64,000 nucleotides of DNA from Cyathus striatus. Its lineage: Eukaryota > Basidiomycota > Agaricomycetes > Agaricales > Nidulariaceae. The stretch spans positions 3,534,001 to 3,598,000 of the forward strand of contig JAOVFP010000006.1 of NCBI GenBank assembly GCA_025738555.1. The letters run 5' to 3'. The position numbers were made by a program, and so were the translations under genes. Shown piece by piece: positions 3,001 through 50,487 of this stretch; position 1 is the first letter of the stretch; every line of letters begins with the position of its first letter. A model generated the notes under the pieces. The model was given only the letters and a program-made list of their open reading frames with translations, did no database searches and was not told the DNA's origin.

Positions 3001-4065
3001 AGGACACACAGGTTATGTCACATCTGTAGCATGTTCTCCAGATGGCAATCTAGTGGTATCTGGATCTGATGACAACACTGTGAGGGTGTGGAATGTGAGT
3101 TTGCTTCTTATCTGTTTATTAGTCACACAGGTTATATCACATGTGTATCATTTTCTCCTTATGGCAATCAAGTGGTATTTGGCTCAAGTGATAGTACTGT
3201 GAGAATATGGGATATTGGGAGTGGTGCAATTTCTGCTGATCCATTTAAAGGTCATACAGATTATATCACATCTGTAGCATTTTCTTCTGACAGAAGGCAA
3301 GTGGTATCTGGATCAGATGATCATACTGTGATAACATGGAATGTGCAGAGTGGCACAATTGCTGCTTGTCCATTTAGAGGTTATACATCTTATGTCATGT
3401 GTGTTGCCTTTTCTCCAGATAGCAAGCAAGTGGTATCTGGTTCCTATGATAACACTGTGAGTATATAGGATGTGGAGAGTGGCACTATTGCTGCTGGTCC
3501 ATTTGAAGGTCACACAGATTGTGTCACATCTGTAGCATTTTCTCCAGATGGAAAACATGTGGTATCTGGCTCTTATGATCAAACTTTGAGAATATGGAAT
3601 GTGGAGCATGACACAGTTACTATCAGATCTGTGTCAGTCTCTCCAGATGGGTTTCCAGAAGCATTGGACTCAAATAACCAACATATCAGGTTTGTAGTAT
3701 TTATTAAAGCTGAGTTTTCACTATGCTAAACTATTTTTAGACATTTTCAGTTGACACCTGGTATCCAATTTTCCATATAAATTAAATGATATTAATTTTA
3801 CTAACTATTTATGAAAATAGCTCATTTAAAAAAGTTGCTATCACTGGGTGGATCATCCATATATATTACTAGTCATGATGATGGCTGGGTTAGAGATAAG
3901 GATGGAAATTTACTTTTCTTGGTGCCTGACTACTTAAGATCAATACTATGTGATTTTGACACAATTGTCATCATGGGTAAAACTATTGTATGTAGATTAA
4001 GCCTCTCACAATTCTGCCATGGACCTGACTGGATATGTTGTGTTACTACCAATACAAGAAACTAG
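2..4065 (+). pseudogene. NACHT-WD40 NLR-like protein, disrupted
   Basis: A fungal NOD-like receptor: a P-loop NTPase switch joined to a WD40 sensor, cytoplasmic, of the class linked to non-self recognition. NACHT lies at 315-1703, with Walker A GYPGAGKSAIA just after the start and Walker B VMVIDALDE near residue 100. An upstream exon (128-241) is joined by a clean 53-nt intron (242-294), and an earlier exon (to 26, intron 27-127) fits in phase but is tentative, so the true start is probably outside the window. The NACHT-WD linker (SAPHIYLSALPFAP) starts near 1779 after an intron beginning GTAAGT at 1704; the phase of this junction is uncertain. About thirteen WD repeats follow (1990-3600), then the usual C-terminal cap (DGWVRDKDGNLLF, 3811-4065). 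Two lesions lie in the WD region: a roughly 10-nt loss that shifts frame at 3100-3127, and a Trp-to-TAG change at 3466. Family assignment is firm; death of the gene rests on these two lesions. Confidence 0.5.
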
Positions 4066-5365
4066 TCATTTAATAGAAGCTATCACATAGTAATTCAACA
4101 TGTAAATCATTAGAATTATGTCAATGATCATGTTACATGTTTCAACTCAGCTATTACCCAACTATAGAAATTATAAATATATTATAGTGATTGTAGAATT
4201 GAATTTCCTTATGTCATCTATGCATGTAGAATATAACTATTCACAAATCTCAGTTCTATTTTTAATACAATGACTGTACCTATATGTGAAGAATATGAGT
4301 GTATAATTCAAGACATGATGTCAGATATGCAGTGGCATCCAAAAGTACTGCACACACATCACATGACTGTCAAGACCAGTATCTTGAGTAAGCTCAGAGA
4401 GCTAAAGGTAGGGAATACAATGTTAGCTCAGTTAGGTAAAGGGAAGTGCAGGATAGAAAGGGCTGTTGGCTTCAGCTTATGTGCTGTGCCCCTTTACATT
4501 CTCAAGTTCCAGGTATTTCAAAGTGTGGAAGTGTGGGACAGGAGTGCAGGAGTGTGGAGTTGTAACTTAGGAAGTAATGATTAAGTCAGAAGTGAGTAGA
4601 ACTTAGGGACAAGTAGGGAAGACCATAACTTAGTCAATATTTGAACTGAGTATTTTAATACAAAGATGTGCTACTTAAATACTATAGGGCTTTACCAATG
4701 ACCAGTGAGTGAATGGAATAGTGGCACTCTAGTTGATAATGATAATAAGATGGTGGCAGAAGGTGGAGCAATATCTGAATACAATATGTACCAAGGAGGG
4801 ACTAAGGGTATTGGATTCAATGCTGAGAGCAAGGTATACCTAGGGTACAATTGAGAGGGCATAGTGGATAACAGACAATGAACTGGATGAGTAAGGTAAC
4901 ATAGGAACTTGGCAATCTTTGGTCAGAAGAGCAGAAGAGGGACTGGAAGAAAGAGATCTATACAAGTCAAGAAGGTCAGATAGTGTGGAAGGAAGGTCAG
5001 GAAAAGGTTGGAAAGGTATGGCTATGACAAATGCAAAGTGGAGAAAGCATTTATGTGTTGTGATGCCACCTGTGCATTTAGGCATAAAATTGCACATCTC
5101 TACCATTTACAGTCTTAAATCTGTACACATTAATGAACTCCATATAATAAATAAAGATCTATGGACTGCTACAAAATAGCAAGCTTTGTACTTATTGGCC
5201 TTTTAATTGTGTTAATATTCAACTGTTCATATCATAAAATACAGTACAACTTCTATGTCCAACCTACCATTAGTCTGGTGTGTAGGAAAAAATATTAAAC
5301 ACTGAAGGGACCACTTTTCTGATAGTCACATGACTTATATATGTTTTATATCATTTTAGTACCAC
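4066..5365. other. Unassigned AT-rich spacer with one unrecognised ORF
   Basis: No recognisable gene. An open frame of 104 codons at 4270-4584 (+) starts with a plausible ATG but matches no family I know and has no visible splice signals around it. 4600-5180 is purine-rich on the plus strand and holds only chance frames. Confidence 0.5.
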
Positions 5366-5368
5366 TAA

Positions 5369-6565
5369 CACGGCGGGCATTTGGCTGTCATGTTCCGTGC
5401 AGTCAAGTAACCTGTCAGGTTTACTGTCAAGTCGATCATCATAAAATCATCAGTGACACAAGTCACGTTAAATTGAACCAGCTTACCAGTTCATGAGCAC
5501 TTGAAGTTGATGAGCACAAAGAATTCACCATGTGGCAACCACGAAGTCGGAACAGTGAAAGTGAGCCCGAAAAGATGAGGTAAGCAACAATAGCTGCACT
5601 CGAAATGAGAAGGTTGCGTGTTCGATTCACCGTCAACGCAATATTGTGGAAGAACAGCCATTCTTTTCACGAATAATTATTCTGCTGCAGTAGTACATTA
5701 CAGGTTAAATATTGTATTTGTGGCTATCAAAAATTCATGTGAAATAGTTACAGAATATTTACAATTACCGAGAAAGAATGATAAGCCAGAGTTACATGTT
5801 AAAAACTGATGTAGCGGAACACGCGGCAACTAAAATATAGCTAAGCTAAAACTTTACAACCATGTAGGTTTGAACATCTGCCTTCCTGCAAATAAAATAA
5901 CTTCGTTCAAACTTGTACAACTCACCAGTAGTCAATCAACCTGCAATGTGAGTACAGTCTGATTTTATATATATCACATCGCCCCATTCACTCGCGCTGT
6001 AAGATATGTTTTCTTCTGCTGTGATGCTTCTGTAATAAGTATTAAGTTTTTAGACATTGACTGCTTATAACTTGTTTATTGACACGCCTTTCCAACTGTA
6101 GAATTTTTTAATGATCATTTACAGTTCATTGAGCAAAAACCACTGAGCCTACTACAAGCTCAATATATTTTGAGCAATCATCACCTGTATAATGTATAGT
6201 AAAATGCTACAATACATTTGTTATCATCTGTTTAATTTGATACAATACCGCTTTGCAACAAGTATTTTAAAAATCAAACATTAAGTATCTGCAAGTTTGC
6301 GCTGTGTCTGAATTGAACATGCGGCCTTGTCTTTTCAAACCTAGCCGAGATCTCTTATGTAATCTAACCCAGCTTGTTGTCGCCATTCTGATTTCGCGGT
6401 TGTAGCATTTTGATACCTTTGTTTTTGGAAATTGGTAAGTTGGCTCAATTTTCTGTGACGCTTGTCACTGATGATCTGCTGATGATCTGACATGACAAGT
6501 TACATGACAGGTTACACTTCAGGTTCCATGACAGCACGGAACCTGACAGCCAAATGCCCGCCGTG
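5369..6565. mobile_element. Harbinger-like non-autonomous DNA transposon, TAA target duplication
   Basis: A 1197-bp element with imperfect inverted ends of about 130 bp. The outer 20 bases, CACGGCGGGCATTTGGCTGT, are identical in inverted form at 6546-6565. TAA directly flanks both sides (5366-5368 and 6566-6568), which fits the TWA target of PIF/Harbinger elements. The interior has no transposase frame. A pol III B-box-like word (GTTCGATTC, near 5618-5626) occurs inside but no tRNA fold was found. Boundaries are certain to a few bases; the superfamily is inferred from target and length only. Confidence 0.5.
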
Positions 6566-6568
6566 TAA

Positions 6569-9008
6569 GTTGTTTGTTTGGCATCAGGATTGAAGTTTAA
6601 TAAATAGTCAATGATATAAATATGAATTAATGAATATTTCAAAGTGGCATAAAATAGTCAATCCTTCATCAATCTGGATGATTTTGGTCTCAATCTGGAG
6701 CTGGAATTTAATACATTCTATTCTAGTATGATAGGGCATGGTCTCACCGAAGCACAGGCTTAGATAAGAACAAAACATTGGATTAAAGATGACAATTTTA
6801 TAATGATCTACCCAAGATGATCAATGATGAGACACTGTAGCATCTGGAAACCATGGGAATGGAATATTCTAGAGGATTCTAATGCCTCGGAGTGACTCAT
6901 GGTCAAATAATAGCTATATAAAGACACAAATAAAGACAGGTGAAGTGTTTCAAGTAGATATATGTAGTATACAATGTCTGGGAAATCTTAGTAATAGTTC
7001 TGTGCTTTATGCATTTAAGTAGGTACTATAGAGGGTAGAAAGGCAAGCAGATTCACATCTTTCTTGCCCAGGTACATAGGTATTGGGTAGTGGTTTAGGT
7101 CTTATTTATTTCAAAGAATATTGTTTGTTTGTTTTTCATTTTGGGTATTTTTGGAAAGATTTGAAGTTCTGAGACTCCAGTGAGGGCCTAGGACTTAGCT
7201 GTTTCAGTAAAGTGGCTTCATAAAGAGTAAAGACTTGCTCTTTTCGGTTTTCTAAGAAGTTGTACCAGTGAAAGATTGTTGGACCCTTCTACAGAGTTTG
7301 GAGTAGTACAAAGGTGTATTACTTGAATTCTACAATAAAATTCTATTGTTTTCAGTTCACTTGGCTTCTGAATGATTGAAGAATACATAAGACAATAAGA
7401 AGGAACACCCACCTTTCCCACAACTTGCACTTAAAGAGTCTTGTGAGTTCTGTAGTGAAGTAAGTTGCAAATTTAGAGCCAATTTCACTACTTGAACACA
7501 AGTACCCCTTATCAGTGTGGCTTCAACCTTGCCTTTCATACATGCCTTCAGGGATATCTTCAAATAATGGATCTGAAGCATCATCCACATGACCCCTTCC
7601 CTGTCCAAACTATAGTAAAAGCTGCCATGCATATCCTTTCTTTGCCAGACTTGTCCTTTCCATTTACTTCATTTAATATCCAATCTATTGTACCTTCTTG
7701 TCCTCCACTGGCAGAACATGACACATTGAAGAACACACTCAATTTCAAGGAACTCAAAAACTTTGTTCCAGCTATTTTGGATTTGGTTACCACTGATACA
7801 ACTAACATTTAAAAGTACTTTATTATGTCAGTGGTAGCACCACCAACATAAAATAGGTAATTACATTAGTTATATGTAGTATGAAGGGTATCTGGTTCAC
7901 AATAATGAAATAGAATGATTTAAAGACTATAGCTTGATTTCTAAGACTTGGTTTTAATACTTCAATTGCAGTACTGGTTCAAAAACTCAGATAACCAATA
8001 TTCAATTCAATTCAATAGTACTTGGTACTTCAAATTCTAATAATAAAAACTTCAGATACTGATTTCAGAATGTTACTCTACTTTGAGAATGGAAGTACAG
8101 CTCAGGCAGTGCTTGCCTTTTCTACAGCTAATCTGAACTGCTTATATACTATAACAAAGCCTAGGCATATCATGTAATGTAGTCTAATTCTAGTATTTGG
8201 GTATCATGCTTCCAAGAATATTTACTAAGCTACTTTAAGATAGGACTGACTCTGCATATGAGAAATCATGTGGATGTGCCTTGTTTCAGAGGCACTTCCA
8301 AATGCTACAGCATTGGTATTATTTCAGTACATGTGCTAGGACATGCACTCACATCAGTATGCACTTGGTTACAGGAATTACCGGACTTAACAGCTCTTTC
8401 TGCAGCATGCATCAATAGTGTGTGATGGCATTAGTACAAGTTCTTGTTTCATGTGCTGTTGTCCATGCAGTTTTACACATGTAAGCCATGCAACCATCTG
8501 GTTTCTCATATGAGGGGTACAAGTCATGTTCTATTAAGGCTCTAGATTTGAGTGATACTGGTGTAGGTACTTTGATTAGGATTTGCTTTGGAGTTATATA
8601 CAGCAGCACATGATGCATTGGACTTTGTGCTAGAGCACTATTCAAGATGTATGAGAGTGGTATAGTGGCTTCATTATAGAATAATAATAATTGTAAAAGA
8701 AGTAGTGCAACAGCTACTGTGAAAAGAGTGCAATATATTAAAATAAGTGCAAGGGACTGAAGCCATATGATATATTCTTTAATACCCTTGGTTTGTATCA
8801 GTGCAATACTTTAGCTGGTGGCATGGGTCTCACCCCCAGCCCTTGTACTCTTCCCTTAGTAAGGTATCTTGTAAAAGATACTATAGTTGGCAATTCAGGA
8901 TTCATTCCAACTCTTGTACTCATGGAGTGGCCCTTGCACAGATTTAATACAGAATATTTGAATAAATGCAATAATAATCGAAAAATAACTCTATTCTAAA
9001 AGCTGGCA
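6569..9008. other. Unassigned spacer, no clear gene
   Basis: AT-rich sequence without a recognisable domain. An ORF of 106 codons at 7492-7812 (+) looks protein-like in composition but I do not recognise it and it has no flanking splice evidence; it may be a relic of the gag-like unit that follows. Confidence 0.5.
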
Positions 9009-14150: not shown

Positions 14151-14619
14151 TTTCCATAGAAAAGAAGGTGATGATGTAGTTGACACTAAACTAAATAATA
14201 GAAAAGCAAGTGATGATCACTGAGCAAGAAAGTAATGAGAAGTACAGGAGGAGGTTTCATATGTATGAATGGATACTAATACTAAAAGAACTATATAACA
14301 TAATCAGAGATGTGAAACACATGACAGTGTAGAAGTGTCACATAATCATATAGAGTAAGCATATGACTTAATAATGTGTGTTGGAGATATAAGAATAACC
14401 AATGGTTAATGCAAGAATCATGATCATTTAATGACTGAGACATATGAGTTTGATGTGATGTGGAATCACATATACCAACCATTCTTTCAGATTTGTTATC
14501 CATATGTAATTCTTTCAGTATATGTCCTTTTCTGTTCAGTTGTTAAATATTTCCAAAATATTCATTTCTATCATAATGATCTCATCATCTCTCATATGAG
14601 CTCTTTGTGCTCCCCCCCC

Positions 14620-14870
14620 CCTTACACATGAATTTCACATGAAATTCATGTGAATTGGTGAAGTTCATGTGAACTTTTTACCCACTATTTTTTCAATTTT
14701 TGGGTGAGAATGCCACAAATTAATTCACATGAACTTCACATGAACTTCATCTATTCACATGAATTTCAGGTGAAAGATTCACCTAATATTCATGTGAATT
14801 TTCACATTCCAGATTCACGTTCACTCTAAATGTATGTGAAATTCACGTGTAATTCACATGAAGTGCAAAT
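14620..14870. repeat. Subterminal TTCACATGAA array, gene A side
   Basis: Dense short inverted words TTCACATGAA, TTCATGTGAA and AATTTCAC follow directly on the C-run. The same words line the opposite end at 21690-21950. Their number and both orientations make them candidate transposase-binding sites. Confidence 0.5.
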
Positions 14871-15354
14871 GGAACATTACTCTTACTATATATAGTATAG
14901 CATATAAAAAAAAGAGCATTCACACCGGTGTTCAAATGCTCAACCTCACAAAACCAGCCATGTATTTCCCACGACTGGCACACTTAACCACTGCACCATA
15001 TGACCTTATTTCTCAAAGGTGCTATATGCTATATAGTCACCTTATACTCTCTACCTGCCAATTTTTTTTGTGCAATGTCGAATAACTTCCCACGCATTTG
15101 CTGTCATACCACACATCCCCCACTGTCCTTCCACCACCACCAACACCATTCTGCTCCCCCCCTCGCTCTGTTTAACTCTATGTCATAGAGTGCCGTTTCA
15201 CACTAGGTAAGTTTATTCACATCGCGGATGATCGATATCCATCGATATCGATGAGTACTGACCACTGTTTCTTTAGGATCGATTCCCTTCTCCCTCACCG
15301 CTGTCGACTCTCACTGTTGTCAATCCACCAGCATTTGTCAGCAGTCGCTTTTAG

Positions 15355-16596
15355 GTAAGTCTCTTTTTTTAGCACATCAATATTCACACAACTGACACCT
15401 TATCGATTACAGCCCCCACTCCCACATGCGCGCTTTGTATCAATATGGCAGCATTGCATTCGACACGTTGACCCACCTGCATTCGTCGGCGGTCGCTTGC
15501 GGGTGAGTTTTTTTTAGCACGTATATATATCCACACAGCTGAAACTTTGTTATCAATTACAGCCCCCACTCCCACACGCACGCTTCGTGTCAATATGGCA
15601 ATGCTGCGTTCACGTTCAACACTGCAATGCTGTGTTCAACACTGCAATGCTGTGTTCAACACTGCAATGCTGTGTTCAACACTGCAATGCTGCATTCAAC
15701 ACTGCAAGATACACATGTTGTTGACATACCACGCTGCGTCAATATGCATGGGATCATCCTCCCCGCCTCGATCCCTTTCGATTTCGCCATACGATAGGGG
15801 GGAGTAATGTATTCAAAGACGTTTAGTGGGTTACAGGATTGAGTAGTACAGTACGTCTCCCTCCCTCCCCCTCCTCCCCATGCTACCCCTCCAACCTTCA
15901 CAGGCGGCAACACATTCTACCACCTTCAACGCCAGACCGCAACAGCTCCCTCTCGATTCCCGCCCCTTTCAGCCCCAGCATCAATGCGAAACGCCGACAC
16001 CATGTTACCACCCCCTCAATGATTTCATGCCCACTCTGCCATCCGCATCGTCCCCAGCTCCCCTCTCAATTCCCGCCCCTTTCAGCCCCAGCATCAACAC
16101 GAAACACCAACACCGCATTACCACCCCCTCCTCGACGATTCCACGCCCACTCTGCCATCCGCCTCATCCCCCGCGGGCTTATCGATGCCACGTCATCGGT
16201 GGGCGGCTTACGTGTGCATGCTACGGCTGTTTGATGACACTGAGGGTGTGCGTGTACCATGCTAGGGGGACACGTGCGCACACCCACTTCAATGTCAAAC
16301 TACAGCAGCCCCTCTCTCAACATCCGCCCCTTTCAGCTCCTCCCATCTGCCATCCATCCAGCACCGCTCTCATCCCCGTGGGCTTATTGACTCCACGTCA
16401 TCGATTGGTGGCTTACGTGTCGTGCTATGGGTGTTCGAGGACACCTGAGGGTGTGTGTGTACCATGCTAGGGAGGACGCATGTGCACTGAGGCCTGTCAT
16501 AGAGCACCATCTGCTTCATCCTGTTCATCACTGGCAGGTAAGTCTTTTTAACATATATCTATATCCCTACAACTAATATTTCCTTATCTATTACAG
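15355..16596 (+). repeat. Three intron-like repeats and GC-rich duplications upstream of gene A
   Basis: Three related 58-60-nt units (15355-15412, 15503-15562, 16538-16596) each start GTAAGTCT or GTGAGTTT, continue with a T-run, and end in a TTACAG or ATTACAG acceptor. Between them lie a 20-bp tandem repeat containing TTCAACACTGCAATGCTGTG (about 15612-15705) and duplicated GC-rich blocks of roughly 110-200 bp (15930-16480). No long open frame spans the block. It may be a duplicated non-coding first exon with its intron. Confidence 0.5.
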
Positions 16597-17160
16597 CTAC
16601 CACTCTCACATTGACACAGCAGTCTCTCTGCTGTCGCTGAGTCTTCAGCATCCCTCCCTCCCTTTGCGCTGTGGTGTGTCTGCTATCACCACATCTGCCG
16701 TCACTGAGTCCTTGGTGTCCTCCTCCCCTCCCTTTGCACTGCAGTGTGTCCGCCATCACCATCTCCACCATTCGGCTCGCTTATCGATGCTGTGTGGCTC
16801 AGGGGCACTTAGGTGCGTGTGTGATGCTTCTGAGTTGGCAGAGAAGATTGTGTACATCGTAGCTAAGTTTAGTGTAGATATTATTAGTCTACCAATAGAA
16901 TTGGTTTTCACAGAGAAGATTGTGCACATTGTAATTAAGTTTAGTATAGATAATATTAGTCCACCAATAGGATTACACCACATGTTAAGATAATTTTAGA
17001 CAAGGTTAGGAAGCATGTCATGTGTGTGTACACATGAGACACAGGCCATAGGACACAAGCTGTTGAGTTCATTGTGTCCCCCCCACTTAACTCTCAACCA
17101 CTCAACCACCATCTCTTAGTTCAACTTTGTTAAACTCTTACTCTGTATTTTCAACAAATA

Positions 17161-19271
17161 TGCCATCTCAAAACAGCAAAAAAAGCAACAATACCCCAGT
17201 CTCACCACCAACTTCTCGCAGTGGTTTGACTCGCACTGAGCCACCTGTCTCTAAAGGCCGCAAACGTACACAATCTACTGTAGATACCACAGCTGAGCCA
17301 GCTACCAAGAAGCCTGCTGTTACAGCTGATGAAGAAACAGTAGATAACAGTGAAAAGCAGGGAAAGAAAAGAGGTGGGAGGGGAAGAGGTGGGAAACTAA
17401 GGGGGAGAGGTGGGCTGTATGTATCAGCTATTGTAGTTGTTTTTCAAAGTTCAATATCTGACTTAAATTTTAAGTAAAACCACTGGTGATAAGGATAAGG
17501 AAGATGAAGCTGCAAGCAATGCAGCCAACAAAGACAAATCCAAGGCATAAGTATATATTTTGTTGCACTAGATTTTTCTAATGCAATAATTTTAGTGCTA
17601 TGAAGAAACTTCAAGAAATGTCAATTTCTATTGCACCACCTATGCAGCCCAAGACTGCTGGTGCCTCTGAGATTTCTAGGGCTTCTGAGATTACTAGCAC
17701 TTCTGAGATTGCTGGCACTTCTGAGATTGCTGGCACTTCTGAGATTACTGGCACTTGTGAGATTACTGGCACTTCTGAGATCACTGGCACTTCTGGAGTC
17801 TTGGCTACAACCCCAAGCCAATCAAGTGATTCTGGGGACAATAACTCTGAAGTTGAACATGTCAGTGAGACTGAGGGCATAACTCAGGATAATAATGAGG
17901 AAAATGAAGACAATACAGAAGATAAAGATGGTGATGATGATGTAGAAGAAAGAGAAGATATGGTTTTAGATGAGAATGACAGTAGCTTGGCTCAGATTGA
18001 GGAGGAAGATGTAGGCACAATGGATATTGGTATGTGCTATATTTTTATTTGTACCTTTTCTAAAATGTTTATAGACTCCACATTGGCATCTGATGCCATA
18101 CCTACAAAGAAAGATTTGAAGGGTGCATCCAGAACTACTGGTATTTCTTATTTTTTTCTTGGTCATAGAAGTTCTGAAATAAATTTCTAGGAGGCATATT
18201 CCGGGGCAAAGCTCAAGGAAATAATTTTCGGTTTGCTGATAATACAAATGAAAGTTCATCTATGGTTGTAAACCCTCAGGGGTTTGTCTACATCACAGTT
18301 TCTGATGATTCTCCTAAGTTTAATCCAACCCTGTTGAATACTGAAACACCACCTCAGGCTGTGCCAACTACAGTAAATTCTTGCCTTAAATTGGTACTGG
18401 ACTCAGTTGCAAAAAGAATGCCTATCATTAAACATAAGATTAACTTTGACTTAATGTTATCATTTGACTAATATTACATAGTTCAAAATAGGCTTATTAT
18501 GAATTTTGACACTGAGCGCGATACTTGGATTATATTTGGACGCTTCAATGATATTGAAAGCACTGATACTATTCAGTGGACTTCTCAAGTAAATGATCTG
18601 GTGTTATATCTTGCTGCTGTAATATCATTTTAACTTATATTCATATCTAATTTCTCATAATTTCTTAGATTTCTGTGAAAGAAACTGTCAACTTCCACTT
18701 AGCAAGAAGTGTGGGCAGTTCCTATGGAGCATCAACAACTACTAAGAGCAGTGAAAATGCCTCTGCCTCTACTGCTACTGATGAGAATCTTGGCATCCCT
18801 GATGGACTTACTAAAAAACAAGAACTTATTATATCTGTTTATAAAGTAGATAAGTCCCTTCTTGGACATAAGAACTGGTCTATTCAGATAGCATGGAAAA
18901 TCTACCAAGAGGTACAATGAGTCAAACACTTGGTAGATACAAGCCCACAGATGTGGCCCTCTGATATGGATAAGCCAATTATGAGAGACTTACACACAAT
19001 GTTTGGAGCTGCTGGGACTGCTTGGCATCATTGGGATAAAGTTCTGAAATTTGTATCCAACTACCCTGACATGGAAGAGTGGTTGAGTACTGCAACCCCA
19101 CCAGATAATAAAGCAACTCATGAGTTATGGGGATTGGAGAAGACAGCAGGATTCACTAGAACAGACTTGGAAAACTGGATTAAGAAAAAGAAGGGTATTA
19201 GTGCTGGAAAGGGAAAGCAGAAAGCAGAGGGGGGAAAGGGTAAGAAAGGATCTGGTATAAAGAATAAGTAA
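17161..19271 (+). pseudogene. Gene A, copy 1: element-encoded accessory protein, decayed
   Basis: Homologue of the intact gene at 50537-51734, in the same position upstream of gene B. The N-terminal exon is Ser/Thr/Lys-rich and ends in a GGRGRGG Arg-Gly stretch (17161-17416). Intron 17417-17474 fits in phase. A third segment (17596-18029) has an 18-bp repeat coding TSEIAG-type hexapeptides, then an acidic region. Introns at 18030-18074 and 18141-18190 are canonical. The core (18191-18600) has the GFVYITVSDDSP pattern and a segment at 18490-18590 that aligns with the other copy's GNFES region. The C-terminus (18930-19271) has ELWGLEK..F....LENWIKKKK and a Lys/Gly tail. Stops at 17548 (TAA), about 18469 (TAA) and 18918 (TGA) disable it. 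Function unknown. Confidence 0.5.
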
Positions 19272-19375
19272 GTAAAGTTGTGAAAGATAGCATGTTTTAC
19301 TTTTAAATTTGCATCCAATGTACTTTTAGTTTTCTCTATATCTGTGTATGGCTTCTTCAAATCTATTATGCAATA

Positions 19376-21493
19376 GTGATGCACTATTATTGGTTGATTG
19401 CACTAGCATATTTACCTATGGCTTATGGTATTGGACCTGAACAAGAATTTCCTATACTGAAGTTTGCTAAATTTAGTTCATTTATTCAAGAAACATTTGG
19501 TTCAAAAATAAGCTTATCAACTGTTTTATTTCTGCTATTTACATTAACAAAAAATGTTGAATTGCTAAATCTGCATGCAAGGCAGCAGTATTGTGAAGGA
19601 AATGATCGAAGAAGAACTCAAATCTCAAGTTGGATGAATGTATTAGCAACTACTGTTCAAACTGTTCTTGGTGATAAAACAAAGTATTTATTTTCAGAAA
19701 ATGAGATTCCAACCATAGTTGATGATGATGAAATAATTTCTGAAATTGTAATTAAGCTGGATAAATTTGCAAAATTTTTAAAGCTGCATCCTTATGATGA
19801 TGATGGATTTACCCAGGAACTTGGGCCTATTTCTGAGAAAAAAATTACTCCTGTATGTCTTGTATGCCCAACATCTATGCGATGTGTTACAGTATCTTGT
19901 GAAGGTCATTCATTAAGACAATTCAAAATATTCTGATATTCCTAAAGTTACTTTAATTGAAGGAACAAAATTGTACTACAACACATATATATTAACTGGT
20001 CATTGCTCAAATTGTAATACAATTTACTATGCAGATCATAAGCATATTAATATTAATGGTCAAGAGCCCCAGACAGAATATTTGAATAATGCACGCTATG
20101 TTAAAATTGGGACACATTTATGGGTAGATCGTGTATTCTCAAAAGCAGTTATGAATGCCACATATAGTTTTCATGCATCTACTGCTGCTTATGCAGAGTT
20201 CTGGACAAATAGCTATGGTGATAATAATGAGTTAAGTCGCCGACAAGTTTGGGATGCATTTATAGAAGAATCAATTCGCAATGTGGGCACAGCATCCAAT
20301 AAACAATTTGTGGTTCATGATGGTCTATCCACTAAAGATGTTACTATAAAAGCATATGAATATCTTGGAGAGAGTGGAAGAATAAATGTGGCTTCAAACC
20401 ACAGCTGTGCAGAGTGTACTCAACCACATAAATCAACTGCAGATACTATGAATAATATAAACAATAATGCAGCATCTGAAATGGCTTCTCCAGTAAAAAT
20501 GGTTGTTATTGATGGTGTTGTAATGGGACCAGTTCACTGTGCAATGGAAGGCTGTTCTGCTAATGTAACCAATCACCGTGGTGGTGTATTCTGTGGATAT
20601 CATAATATTCAACATGGAGCAAAGTGTCGTGTGAAAGATTGTACCAGACAGAAGGTTCATGGTACTGAAGCATGTGAAACTCATCAAGAAATATGGAATA
20701 AACACTGTTCAAATTACAGCTCAGCAGGTCTTTCTGGACTAAGATGAGCATTACAACATCGCAATGAGAATTTGTCTTGGCTACCTAGAATAAATCATAC
20801 CAATCAGCCACATGATGAAGAACAGAATAGTGATGATTTTTATACTCATAAAACATACTTTTCTCCAAACCATTATTACTGTGTAGAGACTATTTGTGCT
20901 CCATATGGTGTTGTCATTGCATGGACAAAATTTGTCAAGTCTGAATCCTCAAGACATATTTTGGAATTTTTAAATATGGTTTTTCCTGATCCTAAATTAC
21001 AACCAGCATATATATGCATTGATAAAGCATGTCTTGTTCTTCATTTCATTGTAAACAATGCCATTCATCATATTTGGCTTGATACAAGTCGATTTGTTGT
21101 TGACAGTTATCACTATACAAACCATAAAGCAGATGATGATCTTTGCCACACATACTGCAATCCTGCACCTAATGATGGTTCTGCTCCTAATCTTGTAGTA
21201 ATTGATCATGATCATAATGGAAATCAATATTTCAAAAGAGCTTTTAATACACAGGTGAGCTTAAGTACTTTAAGTTGTATTCAATATTAATATTATTAAA
21301 GGCTTGTGAACAACTCAATGCTTGGCTTGGTGGATTTGAATCAATACTGAAAAGAATGACTGTATCAAACTTTAACTGGTTTTTGCATGCTATGTTGTTT
21401 TATCACACACAGCATGTATTGAACAAGCAGCAAAAAAGAATGGCAAGGTTGAGTAGGGATTTATTTGAAAATGAGGAGGAAGAGTACATGTAG
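19376..21493 (+). pseudogene. Gene B, copy 1: CxC5/CxC6 KDZ-type transposase, disabled
   Basis: The putative transposase. After a hydrophobic N-terminus come a CxC5-type cluster (CLVCPTSMRC, GHCSNC) and a block with FSKAVMNATYSFHAS and RRQVWDAF. Then follows a CxC6-type cluster: C-x4-C, C-x2-H, C-x4-C, C-x3-H around 20540-20690. The C-terminal part has the features of a KDZ-associated transposase core: VETICAPYGVVIAWTKF, CIDKACLVL, DSYHYTNH..D.LC...CNPAP, then ACEQLNAWLGGF. I take the Asp of CIDKA, the Asp of DSYHY and the Glu of ACEQ as the likely acidic residues; this is inference. A 47-nt intron (21255-21301) splits NTQ and ACEQ. A one-base frameshift near 19928 and an in-frame TGA at 20745 inactivate it. 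It lies 104 nt downstream of gene A. Confidence 0.5.
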
Positions 21494-21689
21494 GTTGTAA
21501 ATTGTAAATTGTAGACTATTTTGTGTAGAGCATTAAATGATTAGTTTGGTTTCACTATAATTTGTCACATTTTAAGTAAACTTTATTTTATTCTAAGTAT
21601 CATAAGGTAAACTTCTATAATACAAATGTACTTGTGTAAAACTATATGTTAATTGTACTTATCTTTATCAGTACTAAATAGCCTATAAT

Positions 21690-21950
21690 TCATCTAATAT
21701 TCATGTAAAATTCACATGAATAACACCTAATTTTCAATGTGAAATAGCCTATAATTCATCTAATATTCACATGAATTTCATGTGAATTTCACCTAATTTT
21801 CAATGTGAAATTTCACCTAACTTTCACCTCACCTTCACCTCACCTTCACCTAATTTTCACTTAAATTTGATGGTTTTGGAATATTGTATGTGAAGGTGAA
21901 ATTCATGTGAATTTCTGCCTTTCATGTGAAATTCACATGAATTCATGGTG
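21690..21950. repeat. Subterminal TTCACATGAA array, gene B side
   Basis: Mirror of the array at 14620-14870: TTCACATGAA, TTCATGTGAA and TTCACCTAATTTTCA words in both orientations, ending at the G-run (about 21952-21962) and the terminal GGAGTGCAAAGTACTG. Confidence 0.5.
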
Positions 21951-22194
21951 AGGGGGGGGGGGAGTGCAAAGTACTGTCTCATATCCAGACTAACCATTAT
22001 AGTTTTTACTTTGTCATTTAATTACATCTCTAGTTCTGATTATTAAACATCATATCATCCCATTTCCAAATTTCTCATGCTCTGTCAGTGTGGGTAAGCC
22101 TTCAACTACATATACACTCTACATTTTTCTTTCTAGTTTCTTATTACTACCACACTTCTATAACTTTCTAATTGTTATTTTCTGTGTTACAATC

Positions 22195-22350
22195 ATGCAG
22201 GAAATTTGTGACAGATGTGACACATGCAGTATGTGATAAGTGCGAAGCACGGGAATATGTGTGACAAATGCGATGCGCGGGAAAAACATGAGGCGCGGGA
22301 ATATGTGTGACGAACGTAACACATGGGAAAATTGTGACAGATGTGACACA
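22195..22350 (-). repeat. CpG-rich satellite, right (decayed)
   Basis: Inverted, shorter version of 10278-10625 with words such as GACAAATGCGATGCGCGGGA. Many units have lost CpG by C-to-T change. Confidence 0.5.
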
Positions 22351-22374
22351 CTTGAAAAGCATACATAATTCTAT

Positions 22375-22960
22375 TAGAATAATAATAGGAAGCATAAAGT
22401 AATGAGCACTTATGAGTACACATAATACTATTAAAATAATAATAGGAAGCATTACAGTAATAATAGAAAACATAAAGTAATGAGTACTTATGAGTACATA
22501 TACTAGTATTACAATAACAATAGGAATTATAAAGTAATGAGTACTTATGAGTACACCACATGCTAGTATTAAAATAACAATAGAAAACATAAAGTAATGA
22601 ATACTTATGAGTACACATATTAGTATTACAATAATAATAGGAATCATAAAGTAATGAGTACTTATGAGTATGCACACTAGTATTACAATAATAATAGGAA
22701 TCATAAAGTATTGAGTACTTATGAGTACACATGCTAGTATTAAAATAACAATAGAAAACATAAAGTAATGAGTACTTATGAGTACACACACTAGTATTAC
22801 AATAATAATAGAAAGCATAAATTAATGAGTACTTATGAGTACACATAGTAGTATTACAATAATAATAGGAAGCATAAAGTAATGAGTACTTATGAGTAGA
22901 CATAATACAATTGTAATAATAGTAGAAGCATAAAGTAATGAGTACTTATGAATAGCCTGT
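22375..22960 (-). repeat. 57-bp minisatellite, right array
   Basis: About ten tandem units, reverse complement of the left array (AAGTAATGAGTACTTATGAG core). Apparent ORFs of over 200 codons on the minus strand come from a period divisible by three and should not be called genes. Confidence 0.5.
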
Positions 22961-47000: not shown

Positions 47001-47019
47001 CTTATTCTCAGTACTTTAC

Positions 47020-47240
47020 ACTCCCCCCCCCAGTCCATCCGGACTCTGGACAGACTCAATATAGTCCGGATAGTCTGGGTGGAGTTTGGCAGAGTCCTGA
47101 TGGAATCTTGTGGAGTCCGGGTGGAGTCTGGATGGAGTCCTGATGAAATAAATATTGTCCTGATGACATCCTGCTGGAATATAAGAAGTCCTGATGGAGT
47201 CCTGGTGGAGTCCTGATGGACTTTGTATTTTTTAAAGTAA
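47020..47240. repeat. Subterminal GGAGTCC array, gene B side
   Basis: Repeated AGTCCGGAT, GGAGTCCGG and AGTCCTGATGG words in both orientations directly inside the C-run. Matching words line the other end at 54005-54285. Confidence 0.5.
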
Positions 47241-47264
47241 GTTCTGTTTAAGACTCCAGGTGTA

Positions 47265-47634
47265 TTTTCCCACACCTATTGATAACATACTATCTCACTA
47301 CTACATCTTTGCTACTACTACTATTCTTTACTACATTTTCCCACACTCTTCAGTACATGCTACCACTATTATTCTTTACTACACTTTCCCACACCCTTCA
47401 GTACATGCTATCACTACTACTCTTTACTACATTTTCCCACACCCTTCAGTACTGATAGCATACTATCTCCCTACCACATCTTCCTATGCCTCTTCTACAA
47501 TATTTTCCCACACCTATTATTCTCCTACCAGATATCTCTGTACTACATTTGTACCACATTTTCTGACACATCTTCTACCATATTTCCCACACCTATTATT
47601 TCTGATGCCTCTTCTACCACATCTTCCAATGCTT
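47265..47634 (+). repeat. Minisatellite downstream of gene B
   Basis: Imperfect units of about 50 bp: TTTACTACATTTTCCCACAC, CCTTCAGTACATGCTA, ACTACTATTC. It lies between the subterminal array and the stop codon of gene B. The plus-strand open frame here is low complexity. Confidence 0.5.
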
Positions 47635-50487
47635 CTACAACAGACCATCATCATGTTCAAAATCTTCACTAATAATACTAAAGTTTTGGCTGTTCTGCCA
47701 TTTTATTACTTGTTCAGTATGATAAAAGATCATAGAATGTATGAACCAATTAAAGTTGCTTGGAGTCATACATTTCATAATAGATTCAAACCCACCAAGC
47801 CATGAATTTAGTTGTTCACAGGCTTGTGTATTGAATGCTCATTTGTGATATCCTTCACCATTTCTGTCTTGTGCAATATAAACAAGGTTTGGTGCAGAAC
47901 CATCTTGTGGTGCTGGATTACACCACTTTCTACAAAGATAATCATCTGAGTGGTGATTTGTATAGTGATAGCCATCTACTACAAAGTGGCTACTTTTAAA
48001 CCAATTTACCCAACTTCCATTTGCAACTACTGTTTGAAGAAGTTTACATGTCTTATCAATACATATATAATCTGGTCTTAATTCTTCATCAGGAAAAACA
48101 TCTTCTAAGAACTTAAGTATATTGGTTGTTGACTCAGTCAGACTTCACAAACTTTGTCCATGCAATTACAGCACCACATGGAGCACATATTGTTTCTACA
48201 CAATAATAGCAAGAGGCACTAAAATAATGAGATTTCTTTGGAATATTGGTATCTGACTCATCATGAGGCTGCTGAACACATCTTCCTCAGTTTTTATTCC
48301 AAGGTGGATTTTCAGCTGGTTTGCGAAGCATTCTTTGTGCACCATTTAAATAATCTGAACTATGTTCTAAATTATATTTATGCCACATTTCCTGGTGCTC
48401 TGTCATATCCCGTATCGCCTACCTCCGGACTCCTATGCTTTACTCCGCCTTTTCCTTTGCTTACTCCGAACCTTGCTTACACTCTTAGTATTACATACTG
48501 ATTACTGTACATAGATTACTCTTGTTTCCTTTCTTCCGTTCTACTGAGCTATCCCCTCAGTAATGTAGTATACATCTCATAGTGAGTCACTTATCATTCT
48601 TAAGTGCGCCACTATCAGTTTTACTTTACACCGCCATACGCGCTCACTTCTCCGACGCGTTTTATTATGTTTAATTAGTTATAGTTTTCATTCTACGTAC
48701 GCCTACCCTGACCGTACTTCTCTTACTTACTCCGAGTTTCTAGTATTTAAGTAGTACTCGATTTGTACTTAGTCTTTAGTTTCGTATTGAACTACGTCCT
48801 CACCCTTTCGTCTGACTTGAGTTACATCTCTCGTCCTCCGTCTCTCGTCTTCTCCGAAGGGCTTGCCCTTACTCCGAAATCCAGGACCGGGAATCCCAGG
48901 GGCGCAGCACATAAGCTGAAGCCGAAGTCCTACCCTGAGTTATCGTTCTCCGCTTTCGTCTTACACTCACCCCTCGTTTCTCCGCAGTCACTCTCTCGTA
49001 CTCCGCCGCCAAGTCAGGCTAGGGGCACGGTCGTGACATGCTCATTGCAAGCTTGTGTATTTTCTATCTTTTGATTTTGACAGTTACAAACACAGCATCT
49101 TGCTCCAAATTCTTGGTTGTGAACATCACAAAATACACCTCCTCTATGGTTTAGAAGAGTATTGGAACAATTGTCATATGCACAGTGCTTAAAATATGTA
49201 TTAGTATGATATTGTTTAGTTTTAGTTGTGCATTACCTGTGGTCCCATAACAATTCCATCAATTACTACCATTTTAACTGTTGCACTCTCATCTGGTAGT
49301 GAGTCTTGAGTTTATCTATAAGGCTGTGTACACTCTAAGCAGCTGTGATTATGTGATGCACATATTTTTCCATATTCACCCAACCTTGCAAATGCTTCTT
49401 CTGTTAATGCAGTAATTGAAAGTCCATCAAGACTAATAAAATTAACACCAGATCCTGCAGAAACCATGGGTATTGATTCATGTATAAAAGCCTCCCAAAC
49501 TTGTCTTTGGCTTATTTCCTTTCCATTTCCAAAACTATTGTTCCAATATTCCATATATGCTGCAGCAGATGCATGAAAGCTATATATACCATTCAGAACA
49601 CCTTGAGAAAATGCCCTATCTACCCATAGTTTTTTTCCTACTTTCAGATATTTAGCAGAGTTTAAATGAACCATATAATATCCCTGTTTTTCATCATAGG
49701 CATGTTCATGTTCTGCAGAATATAATGTTTTACATTTTTCACAAGTACCTGATACTACATAAGCATGTTCAAATATTTTTGAGCCTTTAATTAATGTTGC
49801 TTTAGGTACATCTCTAACTTTAGTATGCACATGTAGTGCCTGTCCTTTACAGCTCCGTGTCTCACACTCTGCAGCTATAGGACATATTATATGAGCAGGA
49901 TCAATACTAGCATGAGATACAAGTTTCAGTTGACCTTCAAAAACTTTCCTCTCCTGATTGAAAGGATACAAGTTCAGAAGTCTTGCTGTTTCATTTAATT
50001 TAGTGCCTAACAAAATAGATCTGCCTGTTCAAGTTGTGTGTTCATTAATTTCATAATCTTCAAAGAGATCATCTGAGTCCATGCCAATTTTTTCCTGAAT
50101 AGCTCTAGCCAGTAATCTAATCCATGCAGTTGCATCAACATTTTTTTCTCCTGTTAACTTTGCATTCTGCTGTCTTGCATGAAGACTCAACAAATCAACA
50201 TTATCAATCATAGAGAACAATATACCCAATGTGGCAGAGATTGTGATGTTGGAACCAAAATTTGACAGAATAAATTTACTGAACACATCAAATGTGATGT
50301 TAGGAAATGATTGTTCTCCTGCTGCAAGTACTGGTTGAATAAAAATAAATAGAACTAGTATTGCAATTGGGAGCCATTGAAATAGCCAAATTATTAATAA
50401 CCAGAATAAAATATGTTGAGTGATTTCTGGCATGAATATAGCCCATATACAGGTTAAGCACCACAGATATGTCTCAAAGGTTACCAT
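47635..50487 (-). pseudogene. Gene B, copy 2: CxC5/CxC6 KDZ-type transposase, disabled and LTR-interrupted
   Basis: Same protein as copy 1. The 5' exon (50487-50029) has a longer hydrophobic N-terminus and SLHARQQN. 50013-49312 carries the CxC5-type cysteines (CPIAAECETRSC, GTCEKC), AFSQGVLNGIYSFHAS and RRQVWEAF-like QRQVWEAF. Then come VKMVVIDG, a 49-nt intron (49188-49236) absent from copy 1, and the CxC6-type cluster. A solo LTR (48401-49038) splits the ..ACNEH/QEMW.. segment. The core continues with VETICAPCG, VVDGYHYTNH, CRKWCNPAP and ACEQLN-like residues to a TAG at 47635-47637, without the intron that copy 1 has before ACEQ. Stops near 50027 and 49312 and several frameshifts below 48300 inactivate it. 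Confidence 0.5.
48401..49038 (-). mobile_element. Solo LTR B inside gene B (TSD TGCTC)
   Basis: A 638-bp LTR, TGTCATATCCCG to CGGTCGTGACA, flanked by TGCTC on both sides (48396-48400 and 49039-49043). The duplicated bases are part of the gene B coding sequence, so the insertion postdates the element. It keeps more CpG than LTR A and is therefore probably younger or less modified. Strand is arbitrary. Confidence 0.5.

Follow-up and report, generated by a model that had tools for sequence, protein, structure and literature searches.

A degenerate two-gene CxC5/CxC6 element of Cyathus striatus and its probable DDE transposase

Genes for the cysteine clusters CxC5 and CxC6 are abundant in mushroom genomes, and Pfam names them solely as clusters "associated with KDZ transposases". 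The names are said to come from Iyer et al. 2014. What moves these genes? The question is raised by a locus of Cyathus striatus, in whose genome (107 Mb, 24 contigs) a first look gave 448 CxC6 candidates. The window, that is, the whole stretch of 64,000 nucleotides analysed (C6:3534001-3598000), contains an element of 7379 bp (positions 14598-21976) with a perfect 8-bp TCTCATAT on each side and, between its ends, apparently two multi-exon genes, A then B. We propose that it is a degenerate two-gene cut-and-paste DNA transposon and that gene B encodes its DDE transposase; to this reading we assign a probability of roughly 0.85.

A first-pass annotation of this DNA had placed the boundaries by the perfect 8-bp duplication and had described ends running into C-tracts, and on both points it was right. 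The features of the two ends are as follows.

14590 to 14597, no strand: left target site duplication TCTCATAT, same letters as 21977-21984
14598 to 14611, plus strand: left terminal inverted repeat GAGCTCTTTGTGCT, C-tract after it; end sequence in 30 of 30 left-end loci
14612 to 14860, plus strand: left subterminal region, C-tract and repeated TTCACATGAA/TTCATGTGAA-type words, read by eye
21690 to 21962, plus strand: right subterminal region, TTCACATGAA-type words and G-tract, read in the sequence and repeated in the genome
21963 to 21976, minus strand: right terminal inverted repeat CAGTACTTTGCACT, repeated genome-wide as the right-end pattern
21977 to 21984, no strand: right target site duplication TCTCATAT, same letters as 14590-14597

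From each end inward the order is terminal repeat, C-tract (10 C behind GAGCTCTTTGTGCT; 11 C behind CAGTACTTTGCACT, read on the other strand) and TTCACATGAA-type subterminal repeats. Adjoining the element at 22168-22945, minus strand, are simple repeated frames (HYFMLSIIIVILVCVLIS-like), apparently a tandem repeat.

The first-pass annotation had proposed that the genome be searched with the two ends, and this search did return many copies: at least 96 left-end and at least 80 right-end matches, the best 40 of 237 left and the best 40 of 254 right candidates having been scored. The left end sequence was recovered with 15-19 of 19 bases in its loci and the right end sequence in 30/30 right-end loci with 18-19 of 19 (in L056 about 1.4 kb from the match). 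As exact patterns the right end occurs 237 times genome-wide versus 4 times for the reversed control, and the left end 174 times versus 0.

Left and right ends were matched up by contig and strand if no more than about 20 kb lay between them, the pairing covering matches that were cut out as loci or had a listed partner. When the flanking 8-mers of 27 cognate pairs were compared all-against-all, 17 agreed at 8/8 positions, one at 7/8 and nine at 5/8 or fewer; among 1377 non-cognate pairings one agreed at 8/8 and three at 7/8. The copy in L078 adds an exact pair, AGATGCAG, so that identical 8-mers flank 18 of 28 pairs. The 8-bp target that had been likened to that of Zisupton is therefore seen in other copies as well, although one pair stands at 7/8 and nine are mismatched. 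The 7/8 pair (L022/L039) is apparently part of a duplicated region, because 14 bases of its left flank are the same as in L014; the nine mismatched pairs may be wrong pairings or nested or recombined copies. Nine of the 30 left-end loci (L004, L005, L008, L009, L016, L024, L026, L027, L029) have no listed right end and seven of the 30 right-end loci (L037, L049, L051, L052, L054, L057, L058), as well as L073 and L074, no left partner; the pair near C11:2216548/2224774 (L072/L071) was excluded, the left end not being found in L072. The copy of L037, fetched as L077 (C14:2810880-2820500), has no left end: at 3900-7577 it is broken off inside gene A, and beyond the truncated gene lie two inverted blocks that share their simple repeated frames, one on either strand.

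L078 (C6:4439120-4448740) shows directly how an insertion has left its 8-bp duplication. Here an element of 6240 bp interrupts a long frame whose repeats look, by eye, tetratricopeptide-like, and when the flanks are joined to give the empty site the repeat-protein frame stays open across the junction.

The same rule extends to diverged families. A protein search of the genome with the CxC region (best 140 of 766 candidates scored) gave at least 179 matches, of which the long ones listed span 100% to about 43% identity. Two copies each were fetched of family 2 (about 63% identity) and family 3 (about 45%). One family 2 copy of 6932 bp has an exact duplication GGTTCTAC and ends GAGGTCTTTACCCT / CAGTACTTATCCCT, and one family 3 copy of 8053 bp an exact duplication CGAGAGTC and ends GAGCTCTTTACGCT / CAGTAGTTTACACT, all of them resembling the ends of the window element; the second family 2 copy (L086) showed no end pair and the second family 3 copy (L090 with L088) a left end only, the duplications thus coming from 2/4 fetched copies. 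Many listed end pairs lie just 0.7-1.5 kb apart. Twelve such short elements (L091-L102, 663-1481 bp), selected by eye from the end pairs among the matches listed, have an exact 8-bp duplication in 10/12 cases, 7/8 in one and 5/8 in one; they are too short for both genes and have the appearance of non-autonomous derivatives that were mobilized in trans. The window itself holds, at 47001-48400 on the minus strand, a second element of the CxC5/CxC6 kind with its right end CAGTACTTTACACTCCCCC at 47009 and flank CTTATTCT; gene B-like sequence, recognized by eye, follows behind this end, and the element is apparently cut off near 48400.

What do the two genes of the window element encode? Their features, and the candidate catalytic residues discussed below, are these (numbering in brackets refers to P0030, a gene B homologue of Pleurotus ostreatus).

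17160 to 19271, plus strand: gene A, from open reading frames and matches of profile A3, with putative start codon and exon limits
19379 to 21493, plus strand: gene B, from open reading frames, the gene B profile and Pfam, with putative start codon and an intron at about 21255-21301
19926 to 20216, plus strand: CxC5 cluster (PF18718), Pfam E 7e-19, 68.6 bits (cut-off 26.9)
20505 to 20705, plus strand: CxC6 cluster (PF18721), Pfam E 4.8e-14, 52.8 bits (cut-off 27.5)
20511 to 20513, plus strand: first candidate catalytic Asp, in VVIDG (D419), D in 75/76 sequences
21021 to 21023, plus strand: second candidate catalytic Asp, in CIDKAC (D591), D in 77/77 sequences
21308 to 21310, plus strand: candidate catalytic Glu, in ACEQLNAWL (E671), E in 41/46 sequences

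Four open pieces of the element are matched, in order, by the gene B profile, and the CxC5 and CxC6 clusters attributed earlier to the downstream gene are found well above their Pfam cut-offs. The nearest named relatives of gene B are from Cyathus, Amanita, Laccaria and Pleurotus; P0030 (740 aa) is 44% identical over 95% of gene B, and a second P. ostreatus homologue, P0098, is 99% identical to P0030.

The first-pass annotation had called the unit complete. Complete it is in its ends, but in the window copy gene A is interrupted by an in-frame stop (18918-18920). In gene B the frame is broken near 19920, and a stop follows at 20745-20747; both genes were judged against the L078 copy (97.8% identity across 4900 aligned columns from 17079; 11/47 substitutions at CpG sites). 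Broken gene B was scanned as separate open pieces, and an open gene B frame is present in copies elsewhere in the genome. The window element is intact in its ends and degenerate in its genes.

The case for a transposase comes from the fold and from the conserved residues. For P0030 the predicted fold is an RNase H/DDE core that carries CxC6 behind its first strand: the Pfam match of CxC6 starts within predicted strand b1, and most of it falls between b1 and b2. The transposase-like core noted earlier in the downstream gene is thus found again in the predicted structure of a homologue. The two Asp are observed in nearly all aligned sequences; for the Glu, the count of 41/46 refers to sequences with at least 18 letters at 669-690, and with sequences having an incomplete last exon included E stands in 43/69. 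Gene B hence combines two marks of a DDE transposase, a predicted RNase H-like fold and conserved D, D and E. Foldseek of the predicted model against the PDB gave no matches at E 0.001 or better; the transposase fold was seen with a second structural aligner only. When the sequences of solved structures were searched with the gene B profile, only three sequences of an ion channel came up (E 0.022), and these were taken as chance.

The partner gene, A, is conserved, and a ubiquitin/DIX-like domain is predicted in its product. It consists of an acidic low-complexity N-terminal part, a conserved region and a lysine/glycine-rich tail. Profile A3, built from gene A homologues, matches three pieces of the element (one at 3.6e-11, two more weakly), and in hhalign 18921-19268 aligned with A3 at E 1.6e-8. 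In the homologue P0126, residues 82-183 are predicted to form a ubiquitin/DIX-like beta-grasp domain.

Observed here are the ends, the 8-bp duplication, the gene order and the conserved acidic residues, with the fold as a prediction. In the mechanism that we infer, which takes in catalysis, DNA binding, what gene A does and movement by cut-and-paste instead of copying, binding to the 14-bp ends and to the TTCACATGAA-type subterminal repeats would fall to two parts of gene B, its helical N-terminal region and its CxC5 zinc cluster, probably with assistance from gene A. The RNase H core, with its D, D and E and with CxC6 inserted behind the first strand, would then excise the element and attach it to both strands of the target at points 8 bp apart, which would leave the 8-bp duplication. 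Gene A would be the constant accessory protein, its predicted beta-grasp possibly serving in assembly or in contact with host proteins.

Is gene B then a KDZ transposase? The first-pass annotation had called the element KDZ-type, and in the sense of PF18758, the KDZ core, this could not be upheld: PF18758 matched 0/9 open pieces of the window element and 0/32 family members at E up to 1, and was found in the precomputed domains of 0 of the best 120 of 214 gene B homologues, so that of the three Pfam families suggested for the check only PF18718 and PF18721 were recovered. For comparison, an exon taken from one of this genome's PF18758 genes served as query and brought up 442 KDZ proteins, of which 30 were aligned; PF18758 was present in 120/120 among the matches listed. 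Compared by hhalign as whole profiles, the gene B family and the PF18758 proteins gave E 0.085, with a negative control at 0.079. The trimmed cores gave E 0.6.

A gene B family that belongs to KDZ, Zisupton-like but with a PF18758 core diverged beyond the reach of Pfam, would be just as compatible with gene B as the transposase and differs from our reading in kinship only. In its favor are the 8-bp duplications, as in Zisupton and Dileera (7 bp in Kyakuja) (PMC12730594), the cysteine cluster CxC7 of Zisupton itself (PMC12062965), and the trimmed alignment, which sets both families in one register (IDKAC with YDIGC, VDSYHYINH with VGSFHGHAH). In this register lies a signature, D-x2-C-x(25,29)-[FYH]-H-x3-H-x(3,7)-C, that is present in 75/77 CxC5/CxC6 and 27/30 PF18758 proteins and in 0/22 gene A homologues and 0/2140 shuffles; with tighter spacings it reads D-x2-C-x(25,26)-[FYH]-H-x3-H-x(3 or 6)-C. 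The missing PF18758 matches and the hhalign values no better than the control speak against it, and the signature was written after both families had been seen and was compared with no other transposase superfamily. We rate membership a little below an even chance; a distant kinship of the CxC5/CxC6 group with KDZ is possible from these motifs. Simple KDZ membership was rejected, as Pfam, hhalign and the gene neighborhood gave either nothing or nothing significant.

Likenesses and differences to the known KDZ elements run side by side. Both groups are fungal DNA transposons with cysteine clusters in their proteins, both have D-x2-C, H-x3-H-x-C and Cys-Glu motifs, and duplications of 8 bp are reported for Zisupton, Dileera and Cryptococcus KDZ1, and of 4-8 bp for KDZ2 and KDZ3 (PMC12730594, PMC12810828). 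The CxC5/CxC6 family differs in lacking a PF18758 match and in having CxC6 within the predicted catalytic fold. Kyakuja differs further by 5'-CA..TG-3' termini without inverted repeats, as far as described in the consulted sections of PMC12730594, and Cryptococcus KDZ1-3, in which a KDZ core goes with CxC1, by inverted repeats of 139-241 bp (PMC12810828).

Alternatively, the CxC5/CxC6 gene could be an accessory or passenger, the element being moved by a PF18758 transposase encoded elsewhere. This is what the Pfam names would lead one to expect, and PF18758 genes are common in the genome (169 first-look candidates). Yet a DDE fold is predicted for the gene B family itself, together with a conserved triad, and KDZ genes are not its neighbors. 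Counting 92 PF18758 loci (condensed by hand) against 150 listed CxC6 loci and the first 33 loci of the window family, we found PF18758 within 5 kb of 0/150 CxC6 loci (chance about 1.3) and within 10 kb of 4/150 (about 2.6), and near window-family loci in 2/33 and 3/33 cases, respectively. The two within 5 kb adjoin the ends L039 and L060 and may represent one event, because the partner left ends share a flank. As a rule, CxC5/CxC6 genes here are not accompanied by PF18758 genes; also for Pleurotus, Lavrijssen et al. describe no KDZ beside CxC5/CxC6 genes in the consulted part of their paper (PMC7641404). We consider a passenger role improbable. The predicted DDE fold, the absence of a PF18758 match and the general absence of KDZ neighbors make it most likely that gene B encodes the element's own transposase, with a kinship to KDZ that is distant at best.

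Retroviral integrase-type, Tn5 and ISCth4 DDE enzymes share 5-16% sequence identity with the gene B homologue among the matches listed, and their termini differ from those of the CxC5/CxC6 element. To our knowledge none of them has a zinc cluster at the position of CxC6. Duplications of 8 bp are also made by superfamilies other than hAT. With hAT the element has in common this length of duplication (PMC12730594) and a right end that begins CAG; it differs by the just short stretch predicted in gene B between strand b5 and the Glu helix. No hAT domains were among the 21 Pfam families matched (E up to 1) by the 32 gene B family members.

The integrase of a long terminal repeat (LTR) retrotransposon is expected to duplicate about 5 bp. 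That Copia-type LTR elements move, or travel with, CxC5/CxC6 fragments, as was proposed for Pleurotus, where copies of an insert in MSH4 are co-located with Copia elements (PMC7641404), is very improbable here, since the ends are short and inverted rather than long terminal direct repeats, reverse transcriptase had no match in the nine scanned pieces (open frames 17091-21490 only), and an LTR integrase would not explain the element's own inverted ends and 8-bp duplication in 18/28 pairs and two further families.

The Pleurotus case deserves another look. In a sporeless P. ostreatus, MSH4 carries an insert of 6,792 bp with a CxC5/CxC6 open reading frame of 739 aa; its authors, in the sections consulted, found no transposase and no KDZ transposon nearby and implicated a Copia element (PMC7641404). 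The protein belongs to the same family as gene B (P0030, P0098), and the insert is similar in size to the window element; its ends and flanks are not in evidence, so that its link to elements with ends of type GAGCTCTTTRYRCT / CAGTACTTTRCACT, as here, goes by the protein. This suggests, as the simpler reading, that the MSH4 insert is one of these elements and its open reading frame the transposase of a DNA transposon. A primer for the left junction of the insert, used in a LAMP assay, contains the complement of TTTGCACTC, which occurs also in the right end here; the start of the insert being unstated in the consulted part of that paper (PMC12568894), we give this no weight.

In the open-licence literature, searched in part, we found no description of the CxC5/CxC6 unit, its transposase lineage or its two-gene layout, and among the matches listed only the Pleurotus insert work dealt with CxC5/CxC6 genes (PMC7641404, PMC12568894), with 44 copies in one Pleurotus genome and nearly 60 in another (PMC7641404). 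The mobile element at this locus is well defined and its kind is known, with DDE, inverted ends and an 8-bp duplication. It is tempting, although a little less likely than not, to go further and regard the CxC5/CxC6 elements as a superfamily of their own among eukaryotic DNA transposons, set apart by a zinc cluster inside the catalytic RNase H fold and by a constant ubiquitin/DIX-like partner that may polymerise on DNA; on this view it was the landing of such an element in MSH4, rather than Copia, that gave rise to the sporeless commercial oyster mushroom. If gene B is the transposase, the role of a very common fungal protein family would be explained, and a large stock of unclassified repeats would gain exact ends and a duplication rule for cleaning gene annotation; for a commercially used mutation it would offer a concrete, checkable cause.

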